Below are positions 1-64,000 of a stretch of 64,000 nt of DNA, piece after piece (position 1 is the stretch's first letter; each line of letters begins with the position of its first letter). The stretch is taken from contig CP136066.1 in assembly GCA_032622095.1 (NCBI GenBank), positions 54,278,609-54,342,608 of the forward strand. The letters are read 5' to 3'. The stretch comes from Siphonodentalium dalli. Lineage: Eukaryota; Mollusca; Scaphopoda; Gadilida; Siphonodentaliidae. The notes beneath the pieces were generated by a model. It saw only the letters and a program-made list of their open reading frames with translations, did not search any database and was not told the DNA's origin. A program made the position numbers and the translations under genes.

Positions 1-96
1 ACACCACTGGCTAGTGCTAGTCAAAACATTCTAATTTCTGGGATGCCTCAAAGAAAATAACACCTTTGTTCTTATTAACAACAACAGTACTAAAAA

Positions 97-108
97 TATA
101 TATAAAAG
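97..108 (+). promoter_or_regulatory. TATA-box-like motif in leader
   Basis: TATATATAAAAG closely matches the RNA polymerase II TATA consensus (TATAWAAR). It lies 96 bases from the start of the leader. It is present in all 18 leaders, 3 bases nearer the edge in leaders 5, 12, 15 and 16, and also in the three 288-bp truncated leaders. Conservation may reflect only recent copying rather than selection, and an AT-rich stretch can match by chance. Promoter activity is inferred, not shown. Confidence 0.35.
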
Positions 109-442
109 TCAGGAATGGACAAGATAAACTGTCAAATCTACATGATGAGCTGATACATGGCATTAACAGCTTAAGATGCTAATGTGTTTTGTCACATTGA
201 TTAGGTATTGTTTTGACAAGTCAACAACCACTGACATCAAAGCTGGAGCATTATGTGTCATTAGATAGTCTATTGTTTGTCACAAAGTGAGAACTTTTCA
301 CATCATTAGCAAGTTTGAAGTGAGGGTTTAAATATTCTGCAGAAACTAAATTTTCAGCATAACATCAACTGTAGTGGGCAGGAAAGCAGCTAGGATTTAA
401 TATTATAACAACTTGGGTTTTTTTTCAACATTGGATTATTTT

Positions 443-465
443 AGGCATCCAAGCTTAAGGTAAGG
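443..465 (+). other. Splice-site-like pair flanking 15 bases in leader
   Basis: A T-rich tract ends in TTTTAG at 439-444, like a 3' splice site. The 15 bases 445-459 follow, then AAG/GTAAGG with GT at 460-461, like a strong 5' splice site. The 15-base segment contains a HindIII site. The arrangement is repeated in every full-length leader and lost from the three truncated leaders. In an AT-rich repeat this could be chance. No transcript evidence is available. Confidence 0.2.
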
Positions 466-586
466 TATATTAATTTTTTTATAATCTTATATTTGTGTTT
501 AAAATCAATCACAACACATTTTTTTTTTCGATTGTAAAATTTATGGATTTACATTTAATATCATTCATCCAAAAGTAACTTTTAAA

Positions 587-592
587 ATTAAA
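587..592 (+). other. ATTAAA, possible variant poly(A) signal
   Basis: ATTAAA is the commonest variant of the animal polyadenylation signal. It lies near the right end of each full leader, about 480 bases after the TATA-like string. No AATAAA was noticed in the leader. The motif is short and the region is AT-rich, so chance is a good explanation. Confidence 0.15.
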
Positions 593-771
593 CAAATGTC
601 CTAAAAAAAAGTTAATAGAAACATTCAGTTGAAATTGTTCTGACATTCAAATTGGTTGAGTTAAAAGTTGATATATATATATTGGTTCATCGATTTTAAA
701 GTTATTTTGACAGAGAAAAGCTTCCTAGTCAGTCCCACTATTTGGTCAGTTCTGGTGCAACATGAAACTAG

Positions 772-786
772 CACTAGTCAGTAGTG
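772..786. repeat. Core inverted repeat CACTA-GTCAG-TAGTG
   Basis: Five-base arms surround a GTCAG or GCCAG spacer, seven bases before the GACTGG hairpin. A third CACTA upstream (CCCACTATTTGG) can also pair with TAGTG in CTAGTGTGAC. Together these give each monomer a cluster of alternative stems in its right half. Confidence 0.7.
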
Positions 787-792
787 GTACTG

Positions 793-807
793 GACTGGGA
801 ACCAGTC
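793..807. repeat. Core inverted repeat GACTGG-GAA-CCAGTC
   Basis: Six-base arms flank a three-base spacer. It is present in nearly every monomer of the window, so more than 300 times. Copies reading GGGAACAAGTC or GACTTGGAACC break one arm. In RNA or single-stranded DNA it would form a short, tight hairpin. Confidence 0.8.
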
Positions 808-810
808 ATC

Positions 811-970
811 TTATGGTTGAGTTAAAAGTTGATGTATACATTGGTTTATCGATTTTCAAGATCTTTTGACATAGAAAAGCTTCCTAGTCAGTTCTACTAT
901 TTGGTCAGTTCTGGTGTTATATGAAAACTAGCACTAGTCAGTAGTGGTGTTGGACTGGGAACCAGTCATC
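811..970. repeat. Representative 160-bp satellite monomer
   Basis: The register used here starts right after ACCAGTCATC. The left ~75 bp is AT-rich (TTGAGT[T/C]AAAAGTTGATG, then TATCGATTTTCAAG with a ClaI site in many copies). A HindIII site AAGCTT follows, then a right half with repeated GTCAGT words, GCACTAG[T/C]CAGTAGTGG and ACTGGACTGGGAACCAGTC. The size is close to one nucleosome plus a short linker, which is common for satellites. Each monomer carries about four short inverted repeats. Confidence 0.95.
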
Positions 971-2097
971 TAATGGTAGAGTCAAAAGTTGATGTATATA
1001 TTGGTTAATCGATTTTCAAGTTATTTTGACAGAGAAAAGCTTCCTAGTCAGTCCCACTATTTGGTCAGTTCTAGTGTGACATGAAAACTAGCACTAGTCA
1101 GTAGTGGCACTGGACTGGGAACCAGTCATCTTATGGTTGAGTTAAAAGTTGATGTATACATTGGTTTATCGATTTTCAAGATCTTTTGACATAGAAAAGC
1201 TTCCTAGTCAGTTCTACTATTTGGTCAGTTCTGGTGTTATATGAAAACTAGCACTAGTCAGTAGTGGTGTTGGACTGGGAACCAGTCATCTAATGGTAGA
1301 GTCAAAAGTTGATGTATATATTGGTTAATCGATTTTCAAGTTATTTTGACAGAGAAAAGCTTCCTAGTCAGTCCCACTATTTGGTCAGTTCTAGTGTGAC
1401 ATGAAAACTAGCACTAGTCAGTAGTGGCACTGGACTGGGAACCAGTCATCCTATGGTTGAATCAAAAGTTGATGTAAATAATGGTTTATCTATTTTCAAG
1501 ATCTTTTGACAGAGAAAAGCTTCCTAGTCAGTCCCACTATTTGGTCAGTTCTAGTGTGACATGAAAACTAGCACTAGTCAGTAGTGGTACTGGACTGGGA
1601 ACCAGTCATCCTATGGTTGAGTTAAAAGTTGATGTATACATTGGTTTATCGATTTTCAAGATCTTTTGACAAAGAAAAGCTTCCAAGTCAGTTCCACTAT
1701 TTGGTCAGTTCTGGTGTGATATGAAAACTAGCACTAGCCAGTAGTGGTGTTGGACTGGGAACCAGTCATCTTATGGTTGAGTCAAAAGTTGATGTATATA
1801 TTGGTTTATCAATTTTCAAGATCTTTTGAAAGAGAAAAGCTTCCTAGTCAGTCCCACTATTTGGTCAGTTCTAGTGTGACATGAAAACTAGCACTAGCCA
1901 GTAGTGGTACTGGACTGGGAACCAGTCATCTTATGGTTGAGTTAAAAGTATGTCGTATATATTGGTTTATCAATTTTCAAGTTCTTTTGACAGAAAAGCT
2001 TCCCAGTCAGTCCCACTATTCGGTCAGTTCTGGTGACATAAAAACTAGCACTAGTCAGTAGTGGTACTGGACTGGGAACCAGTCATCCTATGGTTGA

Positions 2098-2147
2098 GTC
2101 AAAAGTTGATGTATACATTGGTTTATCGATTTTCAAGATCTTTTGAC
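2098..2147. repeat. Left-half inverted repeat GTCAAAAG...CTTTTGAC
   Basis: In monomers reading GAGTCAAAAG, the 8-base arm at 2098-2105 is exactly complementary to CTTTTGAC at 2140-2147, with a 34-base AT-rich loop. Monomers reading GAGTTAAAAG have one mismatch. It bounds the AT-rich half of the monomer. Confidence 0.6.
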
Positions 2148-4155
2148 AGAGAAAAGCTTCCTAGTCAGTTCCACTATTTGGTCAGTTCTGGTGTGATATG
2201 AAAACTAGCACTAGCCAGTAGTGGTGTTGGACTTGGAACCAGTCATCTTATGGTTCAGTCAAAAGTTGATGTATATATTGGTTTATCAATTTTCAAGATC
2301 TTTTGAAAGAGAAAAGCTTCCTAGTCAGTCCCACTATTTGGTCAGTTCTAGTGTGACATGAAAACTAGCACTAGTCAGTAGTGGTACTGGACTGGGAACC
2401 AGTCATCCTACGGTTGAGTTAAAAGTTGATGTATATATTGGTTTATCGATTTTCAAGTTATTTTGACAGAGAAAAGCTTCCTAGTCAGTCCCACTAATTG
2501 GTCAGTTCTAGTGTGACATGAAAACTAGCACTAGCCAGTAGTGGTACTGGAATGGGAACCAGTCATCTTATGGTTGAGTTAAAAGTATGTCGTATATATT
2601 GGTTTATCAATTTTCAAGTTCTTTTGACAGAAAAGCTTCCCAGTCAGTCCCACTATTCGGTCAGTTCTGGTGACATAAAAACTAGCACTAGTCAGTAGTG
2701 GTACTGGACTGGGAACCAGTCATCCTATGGTTGAGTCAAAAGTTGATGTATACATTGGTTTATCGATTTTCAAGATCTTTTGACAGAGAAAAGCTTCCTA
2801 GTCAGTTCCACTATTTGGTCAGTTCTGGTGTGATATGAAAACTAGCACTAGCCAGTAGTGGTATTGGACTGGGAACCAGTCATCTTATGGTTGAGTCAAA
2901 AGTTGATGTATATATTGGTTTATCTATTTTCAAGATCTTTTGACAGAGAAAAGCTTCCTAGTCAGTCCCACTATTTGGTCAGTTCTAGTGTGACATGAAA
3001 ACTAGCACTAGTCAGTAGTGGTACTGGACTGGGAACCAGTCATCCTATGGTTGAGTTAAAAGTTGATGTATACATTGGTTTATCGATTTTCAAGATCTTT
3101 TGACAGAGAAAAGCTTCCTAGTCAGTTCCACCATTTGGTCAGTTCTGGTGTGATATGAAAACTAGCACTAGCCAGTAGTGGTGTTGGACTGGGAACCAGT
3201 CATCTTATGGTTCAGTCAAAAGTTGATGTATATATTGGTTTATCAATTTTCAAGATCTTTTGAAAGAGAAAAGCTTCCTAGTCAGTCCCACTATTTGGTC
3301 AGTTCTAGTGTGACATGAAAACTAGCACTAGTCAGTAGTGGTACGGGACTGGGAACAAGTCATCTTATGGTTGAGTTAAAAGTTGATGTATACATTGGTT
3401 TATCGATTTTCAAGATCTTTTGACAGAGAAAAGCTTCCTAGTCAGTTCCACTATTTGGTCAGTTCTGGAGTGATATGAAAACTAGCACTAGCCAGTAGTG
3501 GTGTTGGACTGGGAACCAGTCATCTTATGGTTCAGTCAAAAGTTGATGTATATATTGGTTTATCAATTTTCAAGATCTTTTGAAAGAGAAAAGCTTCCTA
3601 GTCAGTCCCACTATTTGGTCAGTTCTGGTGTGATATGAAAACTAGCACTAGCCAGTAGTGGTATTGGACTGGGAACCAGTCATCTTATGGCTGAGTCAAA
3701 AGTTGATGTATATATTGGTTTATCTATTTTCAAGATCTTTTGACAAGAGAAAAGCTTCCTAGTCAGTCCCACTATTTGGTCAGTTCTAGTGTGACATGAA
3801 AACTAGCACTAGTCAGTAGTGGTACTGGACTGGGAACCAGTCATCTTATGGTTGAGTTAAAAGTTGATGTATAAATTGGTTTATCGATTTTCAAGATCTT
3901 TTGACATAGAAAAGCTTCCTAGTCAGTTCCACTATTTGGTCAGTTCTGGTGTGATATGAAAACTAGCACTAGCCAGTAGTGGTGTTGGACTGGGAACCAG
4001 TCATCTTATGGTTGAGTCAAAAGTTTATGTATCTATTTTCAAGATCTTTTGACAAAGAAAAGCTTCCTAGTCAGTTCCACTATTTGGTCAGTTCTGGTGT
4101 GATATGAAAACTAGCACTAGCCAGTAGTGGTGTTGGACTGGGAACCAGTCATCTT

Positions 4156-4374
4156 ATGGTTGAGTCAAAAGTTGATGTATATATATTGGTTTATCTACTT
4201 TCAAGATCTTTTGACAGAGAAAAGCTTCCTAGTCAGTCCCACTATTTGGTCAGTTCTAGTGTGACAAGAAAACTAGCACTAGTCAGTAGTGGTACTGGAC
4301 TGGGAACCAGTCATCCTACGGTTGAGTTAAAAGTTGATGTATATATTGGTTTATCGATTTTCAAGTTATTTTGA
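4156..4374 (+). other. Chance 72-codon open frame in satellite, not a gene
   Basis: An ATG-initiated frame runs through one and a half monomers. It is open only because this copy has GACAAG where others have GACATG, and because a 162-bp monomer shifts the frame. The product would be a translation of satellite DNA with the same words twice (VSS...KLALVSSGTGLGTSH-like). No such frame is kept in other units. Confidence 0.9.
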
Positions 4375-6059
4375 CAGAGAAAAGCTTCCTAGTCAGTCCC
4401 ACTAATTGGTCAGTTCTAGTGTGACATGAAAACTAGCACTAGTCAGTAGTGGTACTGGACTGGGAACCAGTCATCTTATGGTTGAGTTAAAAGTATGTCG
4501 TATATATTGGTTAAACAATTTTCAAGTTCTTTTGACAGAAAAGCTTCCCAGTCAGTCCCACTATTCGGTCAGTTCTGGTGACATAAAAACTAGCACTAGT
4601 CAGTAGTGGTACTGGACTGGGAACCAGTCATCCTATGGTTGAGTCAAAAGTTGATGTATACATTGGTTTATCGATTTTCAAGATCTTTTGACAGAGAAAA
4701 GCTTCCAAGTCAGTTCCACTATTTGGTCAGTTCTGGTGTGATATGAAAACTAGCACTAGCCAGTAGTGGTGTTGGACTGGGAACCAGTCATCTTATGGTT
4801 GAGTCAAAAGTTGATGTATATATTGGTTTATCAATTTTCAAGTTATTTTGACAGAGAAAAGCTTCCTAGTCAGTCCCACTAATTGGTCAGTTCTAGTGTG
4901 ACATGAAAACTAGCACTAGCCAGTAGTGGTACTGGACTGGGAACCAGTCATCTTATGGTTGAGTTAAAAGTATGTCGTATATATTGGTTTATCAATTTTC
5001 AAGTTCTTTTGACAGAAAAGCTTCCCAGTCAGTCCCACTATTCGGTCAGTTCTGGTGACATAAAAACTAGCACTAGTCAGTAGTGGTACTGGACTGGGAA
5101 CCAGTCATCCTATGGTTGAGTCAAAAGTTGATGTATACATTGGTTTATCGATTTTCAAGATCTTTTGACAGAGAAAAGCTTCCTAGTCAGTTCCACTATT
5201 TGGTCAGTTCTGGTGTGATATGAAAACTAGCACTAGCCAGTAGTGGTATTGGACTGGGAACCAGTCATCTTATGGTTGAGTCAAAAGTTGATGTATATAT
5301 TGGTTTATCTATTTTCAAGATCTTTTGACAGAGAAAAGCTTCCTAGTCAGTCCCACTATTTGGTCAGTTCTAGTGTGACATGAAAACTAGCACTAGTCAG
5401 TAGTGGTACTGGACTGGGAACCAGTCATCCTATGGTTGAGTCAAAAGTTGATGTATACATTGGTTTATCGATTTTCAAGATCTTTTGACATAGAAAAGCT
5501 TCCTAGTCAGTTCCACTATTTGGTCAGTTCTGGTGTGATATGAAAACTAGCACTAGCCAGTAGTGGTGTTGGACTGGGAACCAGTCATCTTATGGTTGAG
5601 TCAAAAGTTTATGTATCTATTTTCAAGATCTTTTGACAAAGAAAAGCTTCCAAGTCAGTTCCACTATTTGGTCAGTTCTGGTGTGATATGAAAACTAGCA
5701 CTAGCCAGTAGTGGTGTTGGACTGGGAACCAGTCATCTTATGGTTGAGTCAAAAGTTGATGTATATATATTGGTTTATCTACTTTCAAGATCTTTTGACA
5801 GAGAAAAGCTTCCTAGTCAGTCCCACTATTTGGTCAGTTCTGGTGTGAAATGAAAACTAGCACTAGTCAGTAGTGGTACTGGACTGGGAACCAGTCATCC
5901 TATGGTTGAGTCAAAAGTTGATGTATATATTGGTTTATCGATTTTCAAGTTCTTATGACAGAGAAACTCTTCCTAGTCAGTCCCACTATTTGGTCAGATC
6001 TGGTGTAAAATGAAAACTAGCACTAGTCAGTATTGGTACTGGACTGGGAACCAGTCATC

Positions 6060-6133
6060 TTATAGTTTAGTTATCAGTCGACGTTTATATATGTTTGCCA
6101 TTTTTTAAAGTTCTTTCAATAGAAAATATTATA
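6060..6133. repeat. Tail: diverged half-monomer ending each unit
   Basis: After the last full monomer the sequence TTATAGTTTAGTTATCAGTC aligns with the left half of a monomer (TTATGGTTGAGTTAAAAGTT) but is much more diverged. It contains GTCGAC (SalI), seen only in tails. It stops near the point where the HindIII site would be, and the next leader begins. The same 74 bp end all 17 complete units. The SalI site is lost in unit 17 (GTCGAA). The T/A run is CCATTTTTTAAAG in units 1, 2, 14 and 15, and CCATTTTTTTAAG in the others. Confidence 0.9.
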
Positions 6134-6781
6134 ACACCACTGGCTAGTGCTAGTCAAAACATTCTAATTTCTGGGATGCCTCAAAGAAAATAACACCTTT
6201 GTTCTTATTAACAACAACAGTACTAAAAATATATATAAAAGTCAGGAATGGACAAGATAAACTGTCAAATCTACATGATGAGCTGATACATGGCATTAAC
6301 AGCTTAAGATGCTAATGTGTTTTGTCACATTGATTAGGTATTGTTTTGACAAGTCAACAACCACTGACATCAAAGCTGGAGCATTATGTGTCATTAGATA
6401 GTCTATTGTTTGTCACAAAGTGAGAACTTTTCACATCATTAGCAAGTTTGAAGTGAGGGTTTAAATATTCTGCAGAAACTAAATTTTCAGCATAACATCA
6501 ACTGTAGTGGGCAGGAAAGCAGCTAGGATTTAATATTATAACAACTTGGGTTTTTTTTCAACATTGGATTATTTTAGGCATCCAAGCTTAAGGTAAGGTA
6601 TATTAATTTTTTTATAATCTTAGATTTGTGTTTAAAATCATTCACAACACATTTTTTTTTTCGATTGTAAAATTTATGGATTTACATTTAATATCATTCA
6701 TCCAAAAGTAACTTTTAAAATTAAACAAATGTCCTAAAAAAAATTAATAGAAACATTCAGTTGAAATTGTTCTGACATTCA
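6134..6781. repeat. Leader 2 (648 bp)
   Basis: Full-length leader. It differs from leader 1 by CTTAGATTTG, ATCATTCACAAC and loss of the G after the A8 tract near 6740. The last two changes are shared with leader 3 only, showing that units 2 and 3 are closely related copies. TATA-like string at 6230. Confidence 0.93.
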
Positions 6782-9700
6782 AATTGGTTGAGTTAAAAGT
6801 TGATATATATATATTGGTTCATCGATTTTAAAGTTATTTTGACAGAGAAAAGCTTCCTAGTCAGTCCCACTATTTGGTCAGTTCTGGTGCAACATGAAAC
6901 TAGCACTAGTCAGTAGTGGTACTGGACTGGGAACCAGTCATCTTATGGTTGAGTTAAAAGTTGATGTATACATTGGTTTATCGATTTTCAAGATCTTTTG
7001 ACATAGAAAAGCTTCCTAGTCAGTTCCACTATTTGGTCAGTTCTGGTGTGATATGAAAACTAGCACTAGTCAGTAGTGGTGTTGGACTGGGAACCAGTCA
7101 TCTAATGGTAGAGTCAAAAGTTGATGTATATATTGGTTAATCGATTTTCAAGTTATTTTGACAGAGAAAAGCTTCCTAGTCAGTCCCACTATTTGGTCAG
7201 TTCTAGTGTGACATGAAAACTAGCACTAGTCAGTAGTGGCACTGGACTGGGAACCAGTCATCCTATGGTTGAATCAAAAGTTGATGTAAATAATGGTTTA
7301 TCTATTTTCAAGATCTTTTGACAGAGAAAAGCTTCCTAGTCAGTCCCACTATTTGGTCAGTTCTAGTGTGACATGAAAACTAGCACTAGTCAGTAGTGGT
7401 ACTGGACTGGGAACCAGTCATCCTATGGTTGAGTTAAAAGTTGATGTATACATTGGTTTATCGATTTTCAAGATCTTTTGACAAAGAAAAGCTTCCAAGT
7501 CAGTTCCACTATTTGGTCAGTTCTGGTGTGATATGAAAACTAGCACTAGCCAGTAGTGGTGTTGGGCTGGGAACCAGTCATCTCATGGTTGAGTCAAAAG
7601 TTGATGTATATATTGGTTTATCAATTTTCAAGTTATTTTGACAGAGAAAAGCTTCCTAGTCAGTCCCACTAATTGGTCAGTTCTAGTGTGACATGAAAAC
7701 TAGCACTAGCCAGTAGTGGTACTGGACTGGGAACCAGTCATCTTATGGTTGAGTTAAAAGTATGTTGTATATATTGGTTTATCAATTTTCAAGTTCTTTT
7801 GACAGAAAAGCTTCCCAGTCAGTCCCACTATTCGGTCAGTTCTGGTGACATAAAAACTAGCACTAGTCAGTAGTGGTACTGGACTGGGAACCAGTCATCC
7901 TATGGTTGAGTCAAAAGTTGATGTATACATTGGTTTATCGATTTTCAAGATCTTTTGACAGAGAAAAGCTTCCTAGTCAGTTCCACTATTTGGTCAGTTC
8001 TGGTGTGATATGAAAACTAGCACTAGCCAGTAGTGGTGTTGGACTGGGAACCAGTCATCTTATGGTTCAGTCAAAAGTTGATGTATATATTGGTTTATCA
8101 ATTTTCAAGATCTTTTGAAAGAGAAAAGCTTCCTAGTCAGTCCCACTATTTGGTCAGTTCTAGTGTGACATGAAAACTAGCACTAGTCAGTAGTGGTACG
8201 GGACTGGGAACAAGTCATCCTATGGTTGAGTCAAAAGTTGATGTATACATTGGTTTATCGATTTTCAAGATCTTTTGACAGAGAAAAGCTTCCTAGTCAG
8301 TTCCACTATTTGGTCAGTTCTGGTGTGATATGAAAACTAGCACTAGCCAGTAGTGGTGTTGGACTGGGAACCAGTCATCTTATGGTTCAGTTAAAAGTTG
8401 ATGTATACATTGGTTTATCGATTTTCAAGATCTTTTGACAGGGAAAAGCTTCCTAGTCAGTTCCACTATTTGGTCAGTTCTGGTGTGATATGAAAACTAG
8501 CACTAGCCAGTAGTGGTGTTGGACTGGGAACCAGTCATCTTATGGTTCAGTCAAAAGTTGATGTATATATTGGTTTATCAATTTTCAAGATCTTTTGAAA
8601 GAGAAAAGCTTCCTAGTCAGTCCCACTATTTGGTCAGTTCTAGTGTGACATGAAAACTAGCACTAGTCAGTAGTGGTACTGGACTGGGAACCAGTCATCC
8701 TACGGTTGAGTTAAAAGTTGATGTATATATTGGTTTATCGATTTTCAAGTTATTTTGACAGAGAAAAGCTTCCTAGTCAGTCCCACTAATTGGTCAGTTC
8801 TAGTGTGACATGAAAACTAGCACTAGCCAGTAGTGGTACTGGAATGGGAACCAGTCATCTTATGGTTGAGTTAAAAGTATGTCGTATATATTGGTTTATC
8901 AATTTTCAAGTTCTTTTGACAGAAAAGCTTCCCAGTCAGTCCCACTATTCGGTCAGTTCTGGTGACATAAAAACTAGCACTAGTCAGTAGTGGTACTGGA
9001 CTGGGAACCAGTCATCCTATGGTTGAGTCAAAAGTTGATGTATACATTGGTTTATCGATTTTCAAGATCTTTTGACAGAGAAAAGCTTCCAAGTCAGTTC
9101 CACTATTTGGTCAGTTCTGGTGTGATATGAAAACTAGCACTAGCCAGTAGTGGTGTTGGACTGGGAACCAGTCATCTTATGGTTGAGTCAAAAGTTGATG
9201 TATATATTGGTTTATCAATTTTCAAGTTATTTTGACAGAGAAAAGCTTCCTAGTCAGTCCCACTAATTGGTCAGTTCTAGTGTGACATGAAAACTAGCAC
9301 TAGCCAGTAGTGGTACTGGACTGGGAACCAGTCATCTTATGGTTGAGTTAAAAGTATGTCGTATATATTGGTTTATCAATTTTCAAGTTCTTTTGACAGA
9401 AAAGCTTCCCAGTCAGTCCCACTATTCGGTCAGTTCTGGTGACATAAAAACTAGCACTAGTCAGTAGTGGTACTGGACTGGGAACCAGTCATCCTATGGT
9501 TGAGTCAAAAGTTGATGTATACATTGGTTTATCGATTTTCAAGATCTTTTGACAGAGAAAAGCTTCCAAGTCAGTTCCACTATTTGGTCAGTTCTGGTGT
9601 GATATGAAAACTAGCACTAGCCAGTAGTGGTGTTGGACTGGGAACCAGTCATCTTATGGTTGAGTCAAAAGTTGATGTATATATTGGTTTATCAATTTTC

Positions 9701-10994
9701 AAGTTATTTTGACAGAGAAAAGCTTCCTAGTCAGTCCCACTAATTGGTCAGTTCTAGTGTGACATGAAAACTAGCACTAGCCAGTAGTGGTACTGGACTG
9801 GGAACCAGTCATCTTATGGTTGAGTTAAAAGTATGTCGTATATATTGGTTTATCAATTTTCAAGTTCTTTTGACAGAAAAGCTTCCCAGTCAGTCCCACT
9901 ATTCGGTCAGTTCTGGTGACATAAAAACTAGCACTAGTCAGTAGTGGTACTGGACTGGGAACCAGTCATCCTATGGTTGAGTCAAAAGTTGATGTATACA
10001 TTGGTTTATCGATTTTCAAGATCTTTTGACAGAGAAAAGCTTCCTAGTCAGTTCCACTATTTGGTCAGTTCTGGTGTGATATGAAAACTAGCACTAGCCA
10101 GTAGTGGTATTGGACTGGGAACCAGTCATCTTATGGTTGAGTCAAAAGTTGATGTATATATTGGTTTATCTATTTTCAAGATCTTTTGACAGAGAAAAGC
10201 TTCCTAGTCAGTCCCACTATTTGGTCAGTTCTAGTGTGACATGAAAACTAGCACTAGTCAGTAGTGGTACTGGACTGGGAACCAGTCATCCTATGGTTGA
10301 GTCAAAAGTTGATGTATACATTGGTTTATCGATTTTCAAGATCTTTTGACATAGAAAAGCTTCCTAGTCAGTTCCACTATTTGGTCAGTTCTGGTGTGAT
10401 ATGAAAACTAGCACTAGCCAGTAGTGGTGTTGGACTGGGAACCAGTCATCTTATGGTTGAGTCAAAAGTTTATGTATCTATTTTCAAGATCTTTTGACAA
10501 AGAAAAGCTTCCAAGTCAGTTCCACTATTTGGTCAGTTCTGGTGTGATATGAAAACTAGCACTAGCCAGTAGTGGTGTTGGACTGGGAACCAGTCATCTT
10601 ATGGTTGAGTCAAAAGTTGATGTATATATATTGGTTTATCTACTTTCAAGATCTTTTGACAGAGAAAAGCTTCCTAGTCAGTCCCACTATTTGGTCAGTT
10701 CTGGTGTGAAATGAAAACTAGCACTAGTCAGTAGTGGTACTGGACTGGGAACCAGTCATCCTATGGTTGAGTCAAAAGTTGATGTATATATTGGTTTATC
10801 GATTTTCAAGTTCTTATGACAGAGAAACTCTTCCTAGTCAGTCCCACTATTTGGTCAGATCTGGTGTAAAATGAAAACTAGCACTAGTCAGTATTGGTAC
10901 TGGACTGGGAACCAGTCATCTTATAGTTTAGTTATCAGTCGACGTTTATATATGTTTGCCATTTTTTAAAGTTCTTTCAATAGAAAATATTATA
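6782..10994. repeat. Monomer array 2: 26 monomers plus tail 10921-10994
   Basis: The 4139 bp before the tail fit 26 monomers: four 157-bp, one 148-bp, one 162-bp, one 161-bp and the rest 160. The 157-bp type starts at 7743, 8860, 9337 and 9814. The last three are exactly 477 bp apart, a local trimer. The first part (to about 9060) matches unit 3 at an offset of 4861, including the rare GTTGGGCTGG and CTCATGGTTG variants near 7561. The end matches unit 1 (CTTATGAC, GTGTAAAATG). Confidence 0.94.
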
Positions 10995-11642
10995 ACACCA
11001 CTGGCTAGTGCTAGTCAAAACATTCTAATTTCTGGGATGCCTCAAAGAAAATAACACCTTTGTTCTTATTAACAACAACAGTACTAAAAATATATATAAA
11101 AGTCAGGAATGGACAAGATAAACTGTCAAATCTACATGATGAGCTGATACATGGCATTAACAGCTTAAGATGCTAATGTGTTTTGTCACATTGATTAGGT
11201 ATTGTTTTGACAAGTCAACAACCACTGACATCAAAGCTGGAGCATTATGTGTCATTAGATAGTCTATTGTTTGTCACAAAGTGAGAACTTTTCACATCAT
11301 TAGCAAGTTTGAAGTGAGGGTTTAAATATTCTGCAGAAACTAAATTTTCAGCATAACATCAACTGTAGTGGGCAGGAAAGCAGCTAGGATTTAATATTAT
11401 AACAACTTGGGTTTTTTTTCAACATTGGATTATTTTAGGCATCCAAGCTTAAGGTAAGGTATATTAATTTTTTTATAATCTTAGATTTGTGTTTAAAATC
11501 ATTCACAACACATTTTTTTTTTCGATTGTAAAATTTATGGATTTACATTTAATATCATTCATCCAAAAGTAACTTTTAAAATTAAACAAATGTCCTAAAA
11601 AAAATTAATAGAAACATTCAGTTGAAATTGTTCTGACATTCA
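10995..11642. repeat. Leader 3 (648 bp)
   Basis: Full-length leader sharing the ATCATTCACAAC and missing-G variants with leader 2. The first monomer after it has a private change, GGGAACCTGTCATC, near 11790. Confidence 0.93.
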
Positions 11643-46563: not shown

Positions 46564-47207
46564 ACACCACTGGCTAGTGCTAGTCAAAACATTCTAATTT
46601 CTGGGATGCTTCAAAGAAAATAACACCTTTGTTCTTATTAACAACAGTACTAAAAATATATATAAAAGTCAGGAATGGACAAGATAAACTGTCAAATCTA
46701 CATGATGAGCTGATACATGGCATTAACAGCTTAAGATGCTAATGTGTTTTGTCACATTGATTAGGTATTGTTTTGACAAGTCAACAACCACTGACATCAA
46801 AGCTGGAGCATTATGTGTCATTAGATAGTATTGTTTGTCACAAAGTGAGAACTTTTCACATCATTAGCAAGTTTGAAGTGAGGGTTTAAATATTCTGCAG
46901 AAACTAAATTTTCAGCATAACATCAACTGTAGTGGGCAGGAAAGCAGCTAGGATTTAATATTATAACAACTTGGGTTTTTTTTCAACATTGGATTATTTT
47001 AGGCATCCAAGCTTAAGGTAAGGTATATTAATTTTTTTATAATCTTAGATTTGTGTTTAAAATCAATCACAACACATTTTTTTTTTCGATTGTAAAATTT
47101 ATGGATTTACATTTAATATCATTCATCCAAAAGTAACTTTTAAAATTAAACAAATGTCCTAAAAAAAAGTTAATAGAAACATTCAGTTGAAATTGTTCTG
47201 ACATTCA
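46564..47207. repeat. Leader 15 (644 bp)
   Basis: Lacks one ACA triplet and also lacks CT in GATAGTATTG (others GATAGTCTATTG). It has GATGCTTCAAAG. The same three changes occur in leader 16, marking units 15 and 16 as sisters. Confidence 0.93.
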
Positions 47208-52700: not shown

Positions 52701-53427
52701 TATTGGACTGGGAACCAGTCATCTTATGGTTGAGTCAAAAGTTGATGTATATATTGGTTTATCTATTTTCAAGATCTTTTGACAGAGAAAAGCTTCCTAG
52801 TCAGTCCCACTATTTGGTCAGTTCTAGTGTGATATGAAAACTAGCACTAGCCAGTAGTGGTGTTGGACTGGGAACCAGTCATCTTATGGTTGAGTCAAAA
52901 GTTTATGTATCTATTTTCAAGATCTTTTGACAAAGAAAAGCTTCCAAGTCAGTTCCACTATTTGGTCAGTTCTGGTGTGATATGAAAACTAGCACTAGCC
53001 AGTAGTGGTGTTGGACTGGGAACCAGTCATCTTATGGTTGAGTCAAAAGTTGATGTATATATATTGGTTTATCTACTTTCAAGATCTTTTGACAGAGAAA
53101 AGCTTCCTAGTCAGTCCCACTATTTGGTCAGTTCTGGTGTGAAATGAAAACTAGCACTAGTCAGTAGTGGTACTGGACTGGGAACCAGTCATCCTATGGT
53201 TGAGTCAAAAGTTGATGTATATATTGGTTTATCGATTTTCAAGTTCTTTTGACAGAGAAACTCTTCCAAGTCAGTCCCACTATTTGGTCAGATCTGGTGT
53301 GAAATGAAAACTGGCACTACTCAGTATTGGTACTGGACTGGGAACCAGTCATCTTATAGTTTAGTTATCAGTCGACGTTTATATATGTTTGCCATTTTTT
53401 TAAGTTCTTTCAATAGAAAATATTATA
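49749..53427. repeat. Monomer array 16: 23 monomers plus tail 53354-53427
   Basis: The first monomer is cut at AATAGCACT/GAGTTAAAAG (49873/49874), a 43-bp deletion spanning the end of one monomer and the start of the next. A 477-bp trimer is repeated at 50346-50822 and 50823-51299, both copies carrying TTTTCAACATC. Private changes include GTAGTGGGTATTGG near 50314. Two 148-bp monomers occur, one in a GTTAATGTATC form. Confidence 0.93.
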
Positions 53428-54076
53428 ACACCACTGGCTAGTGCTAGTCAAAACATTCTAATTTCTGGGATGCCTCAAAGAAAATAACACCTTTGTTCTT
53501 ATTAACAACAACAGTACTAAAAATATATATAAAAGTCAGGAATGGACAAGATAAACTGTCAAATCTACATGATGAGCTGATACATGGCATAAACAGCTTA
53601 AGATGCTAATGTGTTTTGTCACATTGATTAGGTATTGTTTTGACAAGTCAACAACCACTGACATCAAAGCTGGAGCATTATGTGTCATTAGATAGTCTAT
53701 TGTTTGTCACAAAGTGAGAACTTTTCACATCATTAGCAAGTTTGAAGTGAGGGTTTAAATATTCTGCAGAAACTAAATTTTCAGCATAACATCAACTGTA
53801 GTGGGCAGGAAAGCAGCTAGGATTTAATATTATAACAACTTGGGTTTTTTTTCAACATTGGATTATTTTAGGCATCCAAGCTTAAGGTAATGTATATTAA
53901 ATTTTTTATAATCTTAGATTTGTGTTTAAAATCAATCACAACACATTTTTTTTTTCGATTGTAAAATTTATGGATTTACATTTAATATCATTCATCCAAA
54001 AGTAACTTTTAAAATTAAACAAATGTCCTAAAAAAAAGTTAATAGAAACATTCAGTTGAAATTGTTCTGACATTCA
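53428..54076. repeat. Leader 17 (649 bp)
   Basis: Full-length leader with private changes: GGCATAAACAGC near 53587, GGTAATGTATATT (the second GT site lost) and TTAAATTTTTTATA near 53900. Confidence 0.93.
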
Positions 54077-57000
54077 AATTGGTTGAGTTAAAAGTTGATA
54101 TATATATATTGGTTCATCGATTTTAAAGTTATTTTGACAGAGAAAAGCTTCCTAGTCAGTCCCACTATTTGGTCAGTTCTGGTGCAACATGAAACTAGCA
54201 CTAGTCAGTAGTGGTACTGGACTGGGAACCAGTCATCTTATGGTTGAGTTAAAAGTTGATGTATACATTGGTTTATCGATTTTCAAGATCTTTTGACATA
54301 GAAAAGCTTCCTAGTCAGTTCCACTATTTGGTCAGTTCTGGTGTGATATGAAAACTAGCACTAGTCAGTAGTGGTGTTGGACTGGGAACCAGTCATCTTA
54401 TGGTAGAGTCAAAAGTTGATGTATATATTGGTTAATCGATTTTCAAGTTATTTTGACAGAGAAAAGCTTCCTAGTCAGTCCCACTATTTGGTCAGTTCTA
54501 GTGTGACATGAAAACTGGCACTAGTCAGTAGTGGCACTGGACTGGGAACCAGTCATCCTATGGTTGAATCAAAAGTTGATGTAAATAATGGTTTATCTAT
54601 TTTCAAGATCTTTTGACAGAGAAAAGCTTCCTAGTCAGTCCCACTATTTGGTCAGTTCTAGTGTGACATGAAAACTAGCACTAGTCAGTAGTGGTACTGG
54701 ACTGGGAACCAGTCATCCTATGGTTGAGTTAAAAGTTGATGTATACATTGGTTTATCGATTTTCAAGATCTTTTGACAAAGAAAAGCTTCCAAGTCAGTT
54801 CCACTATTTGGTCAGTTCTGGTGTGATATGAAAACTAGCACTAGCCAGTAGTGGTGTTGGACTGGGAACCAGTCATCTTATGGTTGAGTCAAAAGTTGAT
54901 GTATATATATTGGTTTATCTACTTTCAAGATCTTTTGACAGAGAAAAGCTTCCTAGTCAGTTCCACTATTTGGTCAGTTCTGGTGTGAAATGAAAACTAG
55001 CACTAGTCAGTAGTGGTACTGGACTGGGAACCAGTCATCCTATGGTTGAGTCAAAAGTTGATGTATATATTGGTTTATCGATTTTCAAGTTCTTTTGACA
55101 GAGAAACTCTTCCTAGTCAGTCCCACTATTTGGTCAGTTCTAGTGTGACATGAAAACTAGCACTAGTCAGTAGTGGTACTGGACTGGGAACCAGTCATCT
55201 TATGGTTGAGTTAAAAGTTGATGTATACATTGGTTTATCGATTTTCAAGATCTTTTGACATAGAAAAGCTTCCTAGTCAGTTCCACTATTTGGTCAGTTC
55301 TGGTGTGATATGAAAACTAGCACTAGCCAGTAGTGGTGTTGGACTGGGAACCAGTCATCTTATGGTTGAGTCAAAAGTTAATGTATCTATTTTCAAGATC
55401 TTTTGACAAAGAAAAGCTTCCTAGTCAGTTCCACTATTTGGTCAGTTCTGGTGTGATATGAAAACTAGCACTAGCCAGTAGTGGTGTTGGACTGGGAACC
55501 AGTCATCTTATGGTTGAGTCAAAAGTTGATGTATATATATTGGTTTATCTACTTTCAAGATCTTTTGACAGAGAAAAGCTTCCTAGTCAGTCCCACTATT
55601 TGGTCAGTTCTAGTGTGACATAAAACTAGCACTAGTCAGTAGTGGTACTGGACTGGGAACCAGTCATCCTATGGTTGAGTCAAAAGTTGATGTATACATT
55701 GGTTTATCGATTTTCAAGATCTTTTGACAGAGAAAAGCTTCCTAGTCAGTTCCACTATTTGGTCAGTTCTGGTGTGATATGAAAACTAGCACTAGCCAGT
55801 AGTGGTGTTGGACTTGGAACCAGTCATCTTATGGTTCAGTCAAAAGTTGATGTATATATTGGTTTATCAATTTTCAAGATCTTTTGAAAGAGAAAAGCTT
55901 CCTAGTCAGTCCCACTATTTGGTCAGTTCTAGTGTGACATGAAAACTAGCACTAGTCAGTAGTGGTACGGGACTGGGAACAAGTCATCCTATGGTTGAGT
56001 CAAAAGTTGATGTATACATTGGTTTATCGATTTTCAAGATCTTTTGACAGAGAAAAGCTTCCTAGTCAGTTCCACTAATTGGTCAGTTCTAGTGTGACAT
56101 GAAAACTAGCACTAGTCAGTAGTGGTACTGGACTGGGAACCAGTCATCTTATGGTTGAGTTAAAAGTTGATGTATACATTGGTTTATCGATTTTCAAGAT
56201 CTTTTGACAGGGAAAAGCTTCCTAGTCAGTTCCACTATTTGGTCAGTTCTGGTGTGATATGAAAACTAGCACTAGCCAGTAGTGGTGTTGGACTGGGAAC
56301 CAGTCATCTTATGGTTCAGTCAAAAGTTGATGTATATATTGGTTTATCAATTTTCAAGATCTTTTGAAAGAGAAAAGCTTCCTAGTCAGTCCCACTATTT
56401 GGACAGTTCTAGTGTGACATGAAAACTAGCACTAGTCAGTAGTGGTACTGGACTGGGAACCAGTCATCCTACGGTTGAGTTAAAAGTTGATGTATATATT
56501 GGTTTATCGATTTTCAAGTTATTTTGACAGAGAAAAGCTTCCTAGTCAGTCCCACTAATTGGTCAGTTCTAGTGTGACATGGAAACTAGCACTAGTCAGT
56601 AGTGGTACTGGACTGGGAACCAGTCATCTTATGGTTGAGTTAAAAGTATGTCGTATATATTGGTTTAACAATTTTCAAGTTCTTTTGACAGAAAAGCTTC
56701 CCAGTCAGTCCCACTATTCGGTCAGTTCTGGTGACATAAAAACTAGCACTAGTCAGTAGTGGTACTGGACTGGGAACCAGTCATCCTATGGTTGAGTCAA
56801 AAGTTGATGTATACATTGGTTTATCGATTTTCAAGATCTTTTGACAGAGAAAAGCTTCCTAGTCAGTTCCACTATTTGGTCAGTTCTGGTGTGATATGAA
56901 AACTAGCACTAGCCAGTAGTGGTATTGGACTGGGAACCAGTCATCTTATGGTTGAGTCAAAAGTTGATGTATATATTGGTTTATCTATTTTCAAGATCTT

Positions 57001-60000
57001 TTGACAGAGAAAAGCTTCCTAGTCAGTCCCACTATTTGGTCAGTTCTAGTGTGACATGAAAACTAGCACTAGTCAGTAGTGGTACTGGACTGGGAACCAG
57101 TCATCTTATGGTTGAGTTAAAAGTTGATGTATACATTGGTTTATCGATTTTCAAGATCTTTTGACATAGAAAAGCTTCCTAGTCAGTTCCACTATTTGGT
57201 CAGTTCTGGTGTGATATGAAAACTAGCACTAGCCAGTAGTGGTGTTGGACTGGGAACCAGTCATCTTATGGTTGAGTCAAAAGTTTATGTATCTATTTTC
57301 AAGATCTTTTGACAAAGAAAAGCTTCCTAGTCAGTTCCACTATTTGGTCAGTTCTGGTGTGATATGAAAACTAGCACTAGCCAGTAGTGGTGTTGGACTG
57401 GGAACCAGTCATCTTATGGTTGAGTCAAAAGTTGATGTATATATATTGGTTTATCTACTTTCAAGATCTTTTGACAGAGAAAAGCTTCCTAGTCAGTCCC
57501 ACTATTTGGTCAGTTCTAGTGTGACATGAAAACTAGCACTAGTCAGTAGTGGTACTGGACTGGGAACCAGTCATCCTATGGTTGAGTTAAAAGTATGTCG
57601 TATATATTGGTTTATCTATTTTCAAGATCTTTTGACAAAGAAAAGCTTCCAAGTCAGTCCCACTATTCGGTCAGTTCTGGTGACATAAAAACTAGCACTA
57701 GTCAGTAGTGGTACTGGACTGGGAACCAGTCATCCTATGGTTGAGTCAAAAGTTGATGGATACATTGGTTTATCGATTTTCAAGATCTTTTGACAGAGAA
57801 AAGCTTCCAAGTCAGTTCCACTATTTGGTCAGTTCTGGTGTGATATGAAAACTAGCACTAGCCAGTAGTGGTGTTGGACTGGGAACCAGTCATCTTATGG
57901 TTGAGTCAAAAGTTGATGTATATATTGGTTAATCGATTTTCAAGTTATTTTGACAGAGAAAAGCTTCCTAGTCAGTCCCACTATTTGGTCAGTTCTAGTG
58001 TGACATGAAAACTGGCACTAGTCAGTAGTGGCACTGGACTGGGAACCAGTCATCCTATGGTTGAATCAAAAGTTGATGTAAATAATGGTTTATCTATTTT
58101 CAAGATCTTTTGACAGAGAAAAGCTTCCTAGTCAGTCCCACTATTTGGTCAGTTCTAGTGTGACATGAAAACTAGCACTAGTCAGTAGTGGTACTGGACT
58201 GGGAACCAGTCATCCTATGGTTGAGTTAAAAGTTGATGTATACATTGGTTTATCGATTTTCAAGATCTTTTGACAAAGAAAAGCTTCCAAGTCAGTTCCA
58301 CTATTTGGTCAGTTCTGGTGTGATATGAAAACTAGCACTAGCCAGTAGTGGTGTTGGACTGGGAACCAGTCATCTTATGGTTGAGTCAAAAGTTGATGTA
58401 TATATATTGGTTTATCTACTTTCAAGATCTTTTGACAGAGAAAAGCTTCCTAGTCAGTTCCACTATTTGGTCAGTTCTGGTGTGAAATGAAAACTAGCAC
58501 TAGTCAGTAGTGGTACTGGACTGGGAACCAGTCATCCTATGGTTGAGTCAAAAGTTGATGTATATATTGGTTTATCGATTTTCAAGTTCTTTTGACAGAG
58601 AAACTCTTCCTAGTCAGTCCCACTATTTGGTCAGTTCTAGTGTGACATGAAAACTAGCACTAGTCAGTAGTGGTACTGGACTGGGAACCAGTCATCTTAT
58701 GGTTGAGTTAAAAGTTGATGTATACATTGGTTTATCGATTTTCAAGATCTTTTGACATAGAAAAGCTTCCTAGTCAGTTCCACTATTTGGTCAGTTCTGG
58801 TGTGATATGAAAACTAGCACTAGCCAGTAGTGGTGTTGGACTGGGAACCAGTCATCTTATGGTTGAGTCAAAAGTTAATGTATCTATTTTCAAGATCTTT
58901 TGACAAAGAAAAGCTTCCTAGTCAGTTCCACTATTTGGTCAGTTCTGGTGTGATATGAAAACTAGCACTAGCCAGTAGTGGTGTTGGACTGGGAACCAGT
59001 CATCTTATGGTTGAGTCAAAAGTTGATGTATATATATTGGTTTATCTACTTTCAAGATCTTTTGACAGAGAAAAGCTTCCTAGTCAGTCCCACTATTTGG
59101 TCAGTTCTAGTGTGACATAAAAACTAGCACTAGTCAGTAGTGGTACTGGACTGGGAACCAGTCATCCTATGGTTGAGTCAAAAGTTGATGTATACATTGG
59201 TTTATCGATTTTCAAGATCTTTTGACAGAGAAAAGCTTCCTAGTCAGTTCCACTATTTGGTCAGTTCTGGTGTGATATGAAAACTAGCACTAGCCAGTAG
59301 TGGTGTTGGACTTGGAACCAGTCATCTTATGGTTCAGTCAAAAGTTGATGTATATATTGGTTTATCAATTTTCAAGATCTTTTGAAAGAGAAAAGCTTCC
59401 TAGTCAGTCCCACTATTTGGTCAGTTCTAGTGTGACATGAAAACTAGCACTAGTCAGTAGTGGTACGGGACTGGGAACAAGTCATCCTATGGTTGAGTCA
59501 AAAGTTGATGTATACATTGGTTTATCGATTTTCAAGATCTTTTGACAGAGAAAAGCTTCCTAGTCAGTTCCACTAATTGGTCAGTTCTAGTGTGACATGA
59601 AAACTAGCACTAGTCAGTAGTGGTACTGGACTGGGAACCAGTCATCTTATGGTTGAGTTAAAAGTTGATGTATACATTGGTTTATCGATTTTCAAGATCT
59701 TTTGACAGGGAAAAGCTTCCTAGTCAGTTCCACTATTTGGTCAGTTCTGGTGTGATATGAAAACTAGCACTAGCCAGTAGTGGTGTTGGACTGGGAACCA
59801 GTCATCTTATGGTTCAGTCAAAAGTTGATGTATATATTGGTTTATCAATTTTCAAGATCTTTTGAAAGAGAAAAGCTTCCTAGTCAGTCCCACTATTTGG
59901 ACAGTTCTAGTGTGACATGAAAACTAGCACTAGTCAGTAGTGGTACTGGACTGGGAACCAGTCATCCTACGGTTGAGTTAAAAGTTGATGTATATATTGG

Positions 60001-62893
60001 TTTATCGATTTTCAAGTTATTTTGACAGAGAAAAGCTTCCTAGTCAGTCCCACTAATTGGTCAGTTCTAGTGTGACATGAAAACTAGCACTAGTCAGTAG
60101 TGGTACTGGACTGGGAACCAGTCATCTTATGGTTGAGTTAAAAGTATGTCGTATATATTGGTTTAACAATTTTCAAGTTCTTTTGACAGAAAAGCTTCCC
60201 AGTCAGTCCCACTATTCGGTCAGTTCTGGTGACATAAAAACTAGCACTAGTCAGTAGTGGTACTGGACTGGGAACCAGTCATCCTATGGTTGAGTCAAAA
60301 GTTGATGTATACATTGGTTTATCGATTTTCAAGATCTTTTGACAGAGAAAAGCTTCCTAGTCAGTTCCACTATTTGGTCAGTTCTGGTGTGATATGAAAA
60401 CTAGCACTAGCCAGTAGTGGTATTGGACTGGGAACCAGTCATCTTATGGTTGAGTCAAAAGTTGATGTATATATTGGTTTATCTATTTTCAAGATCTTTT
60501 GACAGAGAAAAGCTTCCTAGTCAGTCCCACTATTTGGTCAGTTCTAGTGTGACATGAAAACTAGCACTAGTCAGTAGTGGTACTGGACTGGGAACCAGTC
60601 ATCTTATGGTTGAGTTAAAAGTTGATGTATACATTGGTTTATCGATTTTCAAGATCTTTTGACATAGAAAAGCTTCCTAGTCAGTTCCACTATTTGGTCA
60701 GTTCTGGTGTGATATGAAAACTAGCACTAGCCAGTAGTGGTGTTGGACTGGGAACCAGTCATCTTATGGTTGAGTCAAAAGTTTATGTATCTATTTTCAA
60801 GATCTTTTGACAAAGAAAAGCTTCCTAGTCAGTTCCACTATTTGGTCAGTTCTGGTGTGATATGAAAACTAGCACTAGCCAGTAGTGGTGTTGGACTGGG
60901 AACCAGTCATCTTATGGTTGAGTCAAAAGTTGATGTATATATATTGGTTTATCTACTTTCAAGATCTTTTGACAGAGAAAAGCTTCCTAGTCAGTCCCAC
61001 TATTTGGTCAGTTCTAGTGTGACATGAAAACTAGCACTAGTCAGTAGTGGTACTGGACTGGGAACCAGTCATCCTATGGTTGAGTTAAAAGTTGATGTAT
61101 ATATTGGTTTATCGATTTTCAAGTTATTTTGACAGAGAAAAGCTTCCTAGTCAGTCCCACTAATTGGTCAGTTCTAGTGTGACATGAAAACTAGCACTAG
61201 TCAGTAGTGGTACTGGACTGGGAACCAGTCATCTTATGGTTGAGTTAAAAGTATGTCGTATATATTGGTTTATCTATTTTCAAGATCTTTTGACAAAGAA
61301 AAGCTTCCAAGTCAGTCCCACTATTCGGTCAGTTCTGGTGACATAAAAACTAGCACTAGTCAGTAGTGGTACTGGACTGGGAACCAGTCATCCTATGGTT
61401 GAGTCAAAAGTTGATGGATACATTGGTTTATCGATTTTCAAGATCTTTTGACAGAGAAAAGCTTCCAAGTCAGTTCCACTATTTGGTCAGTTCTGGTGTG
61501 ATATGAAAACTAGCACTAGCCAGTAGTGGTGTTGGACTGGGAACCAGTCATCTTATGGTTGAGTCAAAAGTTGATGTATATATTGGTTTATCAATTTTCA
61601 AGTTATTTTGACAGAGAAAAACTTCCTAGTCAGTCCCACTAATTGGTCAGTTCTAGTGTGACATGAAAACTAGCACTAGCCAGTAGTGGTACTGGACTGG
61701 GAACCAGTCATCTTATGGTTGAGTTAAAAGTATGTCGTATATATTGGTTTATCAATTTTCAAGTTCTTTTGACAGAAAAGCTTCCCAGTCAGTCCCACTA
61801 TTCGGTCAGTTCTGGTGACATAAAAACTACCACTAGTCAGTAGTGGTACTGGACTGGGAACCAGTCATCCTATGGTTGAGTCAAAAGTTGATGTATACAT
61901 TGGTTTATCGATTTTCAAGATCTTTTGACAGAGAAAAGCTTCCTAGTCAGTTCCACTATTTGGTCAGTTCTGGTGTGATATGAAAACTAGCACTAGCCAG
62001 TAGTGGTATTGGACTGGGAACCAGTCATCTTATGGTTGAGTCAAAAGTTGATGTATATATTGGTTTATCTATTTTCAAGATCTTTTGACAGAGAAAAGCT
62101 TCCTAGTCAGTCCCACTATTTGGTCAGTTCTAGTGTGACATGAAAACTAGCACTAGTCAGTAGTGGTACTGGACTGGGAACCAGTCATCTTATGGGTGAG
62201 TTAAAAGTTGATGTATACATTGGTTTATCGATTTTCAAGATCTTTTGACATAGAAAAGCTTCCTAGTCAGTTCCACTATTTGGTCAGTTCTGGTGTGATA
62301 TGAAAACTAGCACTAGCCAGTAGTGGTGTTGGACTGGGAACCAGTCATCTTATGGTTGAGTCAAAAGTTTATGTATCTATTTTCAAGATCTTTTGACAAA
62401 GAAAAGCTTCCAAGTCAGTTCCACTATTTGGTCAGTTCTGGTGTGATATGAAAACTAGCACTAGCCAGTAGTGGTGTTGGACTGGGAACCAGTCATCTTA
62501 TGGTTGAGTCAAAAGTTGATGTATATATATTGGTTTATCTACTTTCAAGATCTTTTGACAGAGAAAAGCTTCCTAGTCAGTCCCACTATTTGGTCAGTTC
62601 TGGTGTGAAATGAAAACTAGCACTAGTCAGTAGTGGTACTGGACTGGGAACCAGTCATCCTATGGTTGAGTCAAAAGTTGATGTATATATTGGTTTATCG
62701 ATTTTCAAGTTCTTTTGACAGAGAAACTCTTCCTAGTCAGTCCCACTATTTGGTCAGATCTGGTGTGAAATGAAAACTAGCACTAGTCAGTATTGGTACT
62801 GGACTGGGAACCAGTCATCTTATAGTTTAGTTATCAGTCGAAGTTTATATATGTTTGCCATTTTTTTAAGTTCTTTCAATAGAAAATATTATA
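54077..62893. repeat. Monomer array 17: 55 monomers plus tail 62820-62893
   Basis: The longest array. 8743 bp fit 55 monomers, with five 148-bp and seven 162-bp types. It contains an internal tandem duplication: a block from about 54433 recurs from about 57930 at offset 3497, both copies holding the rare AAACTGGCACTAG (54511, 58008). The first copy lacks one monomer near 57585 that the second keeps. The tail has lost the SalI site (GTCGAA). Confidence 0.94.
56559..56759 (+). other. Chance 66-codon open frame in satellite, not a gene
   Basis: The frame begins at a TTG inside a monomer and is open because this copy reads GACATGGAAAC where others read GACATGAAAAC, removing a TGA. The sister copy 3497 bp downstream (near 60076) reads GACATGAAAAC and is closed. 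There is no ATG start, no domain and no conservation. Confidence 0.9.
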
Positions 62894-63542
62894 ACACCAC
62901 TGGCTAGTGCTAGTCAAAACATTCTAATTTCTGGGATGCCTCAAAGAAAATAACACCTTTGTTCTTATTAACAACAACAGTACTAAAAATATATATAAAA
63001 GTCAGGAATGGACAAGATAAACTGTCAAATCTACATGATGAGCTGATACATGGCATTAACAGCTTAAGATGCTAATGTGTTTTGTCACATTGATTAGGTA
63101 TTGTTTTGACAAGTCAACAACCACTGACATCAAAGCTGGAGCATTATGTGTCATTAGATAGTCTATTGTTTGTCACAAAGTGAGAACTTTTCACATCATT
63201 AGCAAGTTTGAAGTGAGGGTTTAAATATTCTGCAGAAACTAAATTTTCAGCATAACATCAACTGTAGTGGGCAGGAAAGCAGCTAGGATTTAATATTATA
63301 ACAACTTGGGTTTTTTTTCAACATTGGATTATTTTAGGCATCCAAGCTTAAGGTAAGGTATATTAATTTTTTTATAATCTTAGATTTGTGTTTAAAATCA
63401 ATCACAACACATTTTTTTTTTCGATTGTAAAATTTATGGATTTACATTTAATATCATTCATCCAAAAGTAACTTTTAAAATTAAACAAATGTCCTAAAAA
63501 AAAGTTAATAGAAACATTCAGTTGAAATTGTTCTGACATTCA
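62894..63542. repeat. Leader 18 (649 bp)
   Basis: Full-length leader of the common type. The first monomer after it has GGTGTAACATG where all others read GGTGCAACATG. Confidence 0.93.
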
Positions 63543-64000
63543 AATTGGTTGAGTTAAAAGTTGATATATATATATTGGTTCATCGATTTTAAAGTTATTT
63601 TGACAGAGAAAAGCTTCCTAGTCAGTCCCACTATTTGGTCAGTTCTGGTGTAACATGAAACTAGCACTAGTCAGTAGTGGTACTGGACTGGGAACCAGTC
63701 ATCTTATGGTTGAGTTAAAAGTTGATGTATACATTGGTTTATCGATTTTCAAGATCTTTTGACATAGAAAAGCTTCCTAGTCAGTTCCACTATTTGGTCA
63801 GTTCTGGTGTGATATGAAAACTAGCACTAGTCAGTAGTGGTGTTGGACTGGGAACCAGTCATCTTATGGTAGAGTCAAAAGTTGATGTATATATTGGTTA
63901 ATCGATTTTCAAGTTATTTTGACAGAGAAAAGCTTCCTAGTCAGTCCCACTATTTGGTCAGTTCTAGTGTGACATGAAAACTAGCACTAGTCAGTAGTGG
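63543..64000. repeat. Monomer array 18, cut by window end
   Basis: Two full monomers (63543, 63704) and 137 bp of a third (63864). Order matches the start of other full units, so the macrosatellite continues beyond the window. Confidence 0.93.

Follow-up and report, generated by a model that had tools for sequence, protein, structure and literature searches.

A tandem satellite of Siphonodentalium dalli with a constant spacer module and monomer blocks of variable length, probably shaped by unequal exchange between monomers

A stretch of 64,000 nt in the Siphonodentalium dalli genome, referred to here as the window (C6:54,278,609-54,342,608; whole genome 2.23 Gb in nine contigs, with no chlorophyll a/b-binding protein match, which fits an animal and not a plant), repeats one leader and one tail around monomer blocks of very different length. 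Is such a locus a satellite or a mobile element that became tandem, and how does block length change while the flanks stay constant? The preferred answer, held with a probability of roughly three in four, is a single-locus tandem satellite in which a constant spacer module and ordered monomers in variable number would have been shaped by unequal exchange between monomers.

Leader, monomer and tail modules make up 99.2 % of the window. Eighteen leader copies are present, three of them shortened, together with 17 copies of a 74-bp tail that closes all 17 complete units at 97–100 % identity (Table 1). A preliminary description had reported exactly this arrangement, 18 times around 1–55 monomers, and the extremes are indeed found in units 8 and 17. 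The full-length leader is 650 bp, a constant spacer of ~0.65 kb, and the leaders of the window are 98.5–100 % identical to the first; in unit 16, ~63 bp (49650-49712) have no match. Monomers are ~160 bp long, and 328 of them were typed into 30 clusters. Tandem Repeats Finder scores in the window run from 410 to 20,708, and chance repetition is therefore out of the question. In each higher-order unit a spacer module of ~0.72 kb, made up of the half-monomer tail and the leader, precedes an ordered run of ~160-bp monomers of variable length. The order of the units is that of one assembly.

Table 1. Units, an example of the tail, and tandem duplications in the window (window positions; every unit starts with its leader)
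Feature	Position	Strand	Composition
Unit 1	1..6133	+	leader 1-650, 34 monomers, tail to 6133
Unit 2	6134..10994	+	leader, 26 monomers, tail
Unit 3	10995..17762	+	leader, 38 monomers, tail
Unit 4	17763..20243	+	leader, 11 monomers, tail; in the most frequent length class (~2,476 bp)
Unit 5	20244..25735	+	leader, 30 monomers, tail
Unit 6	25736..26720	+	leader shortened to 288 bp, 4 monomers (TGDM), tail
Unit 7	26721..29988	+	leader, 16 monomers, tail
Unit 8	29989..30872	+	leader, 1 hybrid J/M monomer, tail; junction of 5,137-bp tandem duplication
Unit 9	30873..31857	+	truncated leader, 4 monomers, tail; identical to unit 6
Unit 10	31858..35125	+	leader, 16 monomers, tail; identical to unit 7
Unit 11	35126..37606	+	leader, 11 monomers, tail
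Unit 12	37607..43097	+	leader, 30 monomers, tail
Unit 13	43098..44082	+	truncated leader, 4 monomers, tail
Unit 14	44083..46563	+	leader, 11 monomers, tail
Unit 15	46564..49039	+	leader, 11 monomers, tail
Unit 16	49040..53427	+	leader with altered 3' part, 23 monomers, tail
Unit 17	53428..62893	+	leader, 55 monomers, tail; holds internal 22-monomer tandem duplication
Unit 18	62894..64000	+	leader, at least 3 monomers; ends at window edge
Tail (example)	6060..6133	+	74 bp; leader start directly after
Tandem duplication, youngest	25636..35909	+	2 x 5,137 bp (25,636-30,772; 30,773-35,909), 0 differences in one assembly
Tandem duplication	16451..46039	+	2 x 12,226 bp (16451-28676; about 33814-46039), 99.93 % (99.926 %), 8 differences; afterwards interrupted by the 5,137-bp duplication
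Tandem duplication	4357..14078	+	2 x 4,861 bp, 99.8 %, 7–8 differences
Tandem duplication inside unit 17	54400-61393	+	22 monomers, 3,497 bp, 99.0 %

Type J (GCAACATGAAAC; 13 exact copies of this word) opens the block in 14 units and type M closes it in 12 of the 17 complete units; thus both block ends are ordered. The order of leader-proximal monomers noted at the outset holds: every one of the 12 J-starting units whose third monomer is complete has the succession J-A/Q-G. The M end is a feature absent from the preliminary description. Longer strings also recur, JAGKLFCBNAR in units 4, 11 and 14 and JAGKLFCBFCBEAHDM in units 7 and 10. Distinct monomer types are ~9 % apart (median 14 edits per ~160 bp), whereas leaders are ~99 % alike; homogenised units made of diverged monomers are the classic higher-order signature. 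The units are copies of each other, and in-register duplications and deletions inside them account for the differences.

The tail is the diverged 5' half of a monomer. Its alignment covers the first 67 monomer positions (67 bp), with 0 of 300 shuffled tails scoring higher and the best one tied, and a longer relative of the tail in captured dispersed copies aligns over 96 bp. At the start of the leader, ~22 bp look like a piece of monomer in inverted orientation, a marginal match that scores barely above the best of 300 shuffles. In units 6, 9 and 13 only the first 288 bp of the leader are retained; the join, which in unit 9 reads CACAAAGT followed by TGATGT, shares ~5 bp between leader and monomer. 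This sole leader breakpoint is one deletion at ~5 bp of shared sequence.

Beyond the window the array spans C6:54.143-54.808 Mb (665 kb), with ~130 leaders, nearly all in the same orientation, and blocks of 1 to 55 or more monomers. Its left end at C6:54,143,006 is abrupt and falls mid-monomer, and on the right the last monomer stops near C6:54,807,845. A 24-bp leader word (≤2 mismatches) has 136 forward matches and 1 reverse match genome-wide. The first 100 by position are all forward and all within C6:54.15-54.66 Mb, and none of the matches listed lies on C1-C5. Leaders at the left edge are 93.8 % and those at the right edge 95.1–97.6 % identical to a central leader, against 99–100 % for most mid-array copies. 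The array is interrupted by a leader-free stretch of ~78 kb (C6:54.390-54.468 Mb), in which four probes (54.40, 54.43, 54.45 and 54.46 Mb) met no leader, monomer or tail. At the left edge, the second leader is broken by ~380 bp of other sequence with the look of a small mobile element.

The units do not share one constant length, measuring 884–17,229 bp with a median of 3,228 bp over 100 mapped leaders. Lengths are not wholly irregular, since a 2,476-bp class holds 14 of 98 units. Recurring pairs of neighbouring unit lengths number 8, compared with 1.9 expected after shuffling, although the highest value among 2,000 shuffles was likewise 8; this gives modest support to the exchange reading. 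The locus had at first been set against ordinary higher-order satellites on the premise that these keep a fixed monomer number, a premise which fails for human alpha-satellite arrays, where unit sizes are mixed (PMC11062924); variable length is therefore no bar to membership. In such arrays (centromeres, e.g. D5Z2), units with different monomer number coexist, having arisen by monomer deletion from an ancestral unit (PMC11062924). In the C6 array the units are more alike than their monomers, the types are ordered in a head-to-tail tandem, and diverged edges surround a homogeneous centre. By its units, order and edges the array is a higher-order satellite and not a dispersed element.

Alpha-satellite and the C6 array are alike in having ordered, diverged monomers within highly similar higher-order units, and in being most homogeneous at the centre and diverged at the edges. 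Units of alpha-satellite as described lack a unique leader (PMC11062924), whereas those of C6 carry one, and the range of 1–55 monomers is wider than in the alpha-satellite examples, 4 to 18 (PMC11062924). The family on C6 and C4 has two clear leader arrays, whereas alpha-satellite has one per chromosome.

How block length changes can be read from the duplications found by self-comparison of the window. Breakpoints of the 5,137-, 12,226- and 4,861-bp duplications are all within monomers, at matching phase. The 12.2-kb copies are now 17,363 bp apart and become exactly tandem after removal of the younger 5,137-bp copy, and their aligned flanks are just 92–94 % alike. The array has grown by tandem duplication of 5–12 kb segments with breakpoints in monomers. 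The preliminary description had proposed a cassette amplified by exchange anchored in the flanks. Exchange is upheld by the three tandem duplications, with their precise breakpoints, and by hybrid monomers; anchoring in the flanks is not, as every length-changing duplication breakpoint that could be placed lies between non-equivalent monomers. Exchange between aligned leaders would be invisible, because leader sequence is near-identical. In unit 8 the single monomer follows J as far as the last informative site and continues as M plus tail; the switch falls within an identical stretch of 29 bp (GGTACTGGACTGGGAACCAGTCATCTTAT), and this one-monomer unit is probably a crossover product. Additionally, the rare types V, U and c can each be pieced together exactly, as mosaics, from two common monomers, whereas any single parent leaves 4–5 differences.

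From these patterns we infer that misaligned monomers on sister or homologous arrays have repeatedly undergone unequal homologous exchange. A single event would reset the monomer number of the cut unit and duplicate or delete whole units in between. The leader would remain constant because it is carried as a passenger and homogenised within the duplicated segment, and block length would vary because a 160-bp register slip is far easier than a slip in the unique leader. The repair route, whether crossing-over, break-induced replication or conversion, we infer from the sequence. Gene conversion, break-induced replication and slippage leave nearly the same sequence outcome as crossing-over: two-parent hybrid monomers are also compatible with conversion, and tandem duplication with junction homology is also compatible with break-induced replication. 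That the lengths in this same array changed mainly by break-induced replication, replication slippage or gene conversion in one chromatid is nevertheless rather unlikely. Multi-unit duplications of 5–12 kb are long for simple slippage, although the present data do not separate non-reciprocal processes as a whole from unequal crossing-over.

A second array with the same architecture is located at C4:38.20-38.35 Mb, with 12 leaders spaced 3.5–30.7 kb apart; most of this array, like the copies at C6:33 Mb and the 78-kb interruption on C6, was mapped by coordinates only. The C4 leaders are 96–100 % like the C4 query leader, and their monomers are ~76–93 % like those of C6. At 1.1 kb or more, the C4 leader exceeds that of C6 in length; across the first 570 bp the two are ~85 % identical. 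The design of constant leader and variable block is thus present at two loci, each homogenised separately, and the shared architecture and variable spacing of the C4 array support the exchange account. Its equally irregular spacing on another chromosome, at a diverged locus, also weighs against the suspicion that collapsed or mis-joined repeats in the assembly produced the irregular block lengths. Near-identical leaders and the perfect 5,137-bp duplication, which rests on one assembly and could be an assembly error, are sequence prone to mis-joining, but the 12.2-kb duplication has accumulated 8 differences and the 4.9-kb one 7–8, and the array edges are graded in divergence; such an artefact is highly improbable. 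To the left of the C4 array the sequence resembles, on inspection by eye, the coding end of a non-LTR retrotransposon (FVRPTLEYASPVWD-like). Part of the C4 spacer (query positions 756-868) is matched at 83–84 % by a ~113-bp dispersed repeat on C1, C2, C3, C4 and C5, which at several places occurs in pairs ~450 bp apart.

The search of the source genome for the leader, originally suggested as a way of telling an element (dispersed copies) from a satellite (tandem copies), came out in favour of the satellite. Interspersed leader copies in both orientations, a mark of HINE elements, were not seen; the leader forms two tandem arrays, with a few degenerate copies on C4 and C6. Major arrays on every chromosome, together with CENP-A, would be the marks of a centromeric satellite; among the first 100 places listed, a conserved leader word lies in the arrays on C4 and C6 only, while 149 reverse matches from the monomer search could lie elsewhere. 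Degenerate single leaders are found at C6:33.009, C6:33.145 and C4:38.196 Mb, and related monomers at C6:34.86 Mb. The tail word also matches C1, C6, C7 and C8. The 12-mer GCAACATGAAAC is additionally present on C1 (253,587,305-253,603,383) as five copies at a constant spacing of 2,863 bp, probably an unrelated tandem repeat.

Six dispersed sites (C1:144.636, C6:163.27, C6:163.30, C6:190.57, C7:169.30 and C8:86.90 Mb) share one ~186-bp fragment of the monomer-tail-leader junction. They were considered as element copies and rejected: their surroundings are shared as well, over several hundred bases to 1.2 kb at 95–99 %, so that another repeat family carries the fragment, and one capture has occurred rather than six insertions. 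The captured junction lacks the inverted 22-bp piece; it is of an older type and appears to preserve the ancestral state as a fossil. The older leader start (27 bp, ≤3 mismatches) occurs at 20 sites in 2.2 Gb, all accounted for: 12 in the C4 array, 1 at its edge, 1 at C6:33.0 Mb and the 6 hitch-hikers.

This census bears on the possibility that the unit derives from a transposable element with central tandem repeats, of the Helentron type (HINE or 'pearl'), in which leader and tail would be the left and right flanks and the tandem arrangement would have followed insertion. The anatomy is close to that of Cg_HINE of oyster, which has a left flank, central satellite-like repeats and a right flank of ~60 bp (PMC7492417), and pearl-type Helentrons, like the C6 units, have constant flanks on either side of satellite-like repeats in variable number. 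The degenerate single leaders also fit such an origin. However, Cg_HINE is interspersed, with subterminal inverted repeats and a 3' palindrome, whereas the C6 copies are tandem and these marks were not found: in tail plus leader, subterminal inverted repeats are not convincing, a clear 3' hairpin is missing, and just three inverted 9-mers occur, about chance level for such AT-rich DNA. In addition, the 20 sites do not constitute an interspersed family, and in this one assembly no flanked insertion or empty site was seen, where a Helentron would be expected to insert between T and T. An origin from such an element is improbable.

In a human megasatellite, an LTR insertion in one monomer was amplified into higher-order repeats, and units later lost monomers via unequal crossing-over between the higher-order repeats (PMC2588610). 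Its monomers are 3.5 kb, LTR-derived and six per unit, in few units (PMC2588610), as against 160-bp monomers on C6, and the inserted piece is an LTR, whereas the C6 leader is of unassigned origin. The best functional analogue for a constant module with variable subrepeats is the ribosomal spacer: in the Saccharum rDNA intergenic spacer, a constant module lies between subrepeat blocks whose number varies within one array (PMC5560572). The constant module of rDNA is, however, a gene under selection, whereas the C6 leader carries no gene or known RNA.

Selection on the leader is the core of another account, in which the array is a functional macrosatellite whose leader is a regulatory or transcribed module and whose monomers are binding sites. 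Over positions 419-458 the C4 and C6 leaders do not differ at all, with the rest 70–95 % alike per 40-bp bin. Similarly, the 3' half of the monomer is far more conserved than its columns 21-60: between C4 (38.20-38.22 Mb) and C6, differences per site are only 0.05–0.14 in columns 81-160 but 0.44 in columns 21-60. Within the C6 array, monomer diversity is flat along the columns. Satellites commonly combine conserved with variable parts, however, and positions 1-20,000 of the window have no Rfam match, no stop-to-stop reading frame exceeds 88 codons, and folding of the monomer is no stronger than that of shuffled sequence, which makes a functional macrosatellite very unlikely. A splice-site-like motif of the C6 leader (AAG/GTAAGG) was also considered and set aside, as it is not conserved in the C4 leader. 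By analogy with rDNA, the leader might be an origin, a fork barrier or a break hotspot that drives exchange in adjacent monomers. This is very doubtful; if true, the leader would be an initiation or barrier site that sustains the architecture independently on two chromosomes.

Unequal exchange between monomers, as preferred here, means that the array calls for no new mechanism. The array is instead a readable record of satellite evolution, in which duplications peel off in order and breakpoints can be placed to tens of bases. One unequal exchange would be visible in it as the source of both a duplication and a one-monomer unit, and the array is suited to the measurement of exchange rates in long reads.
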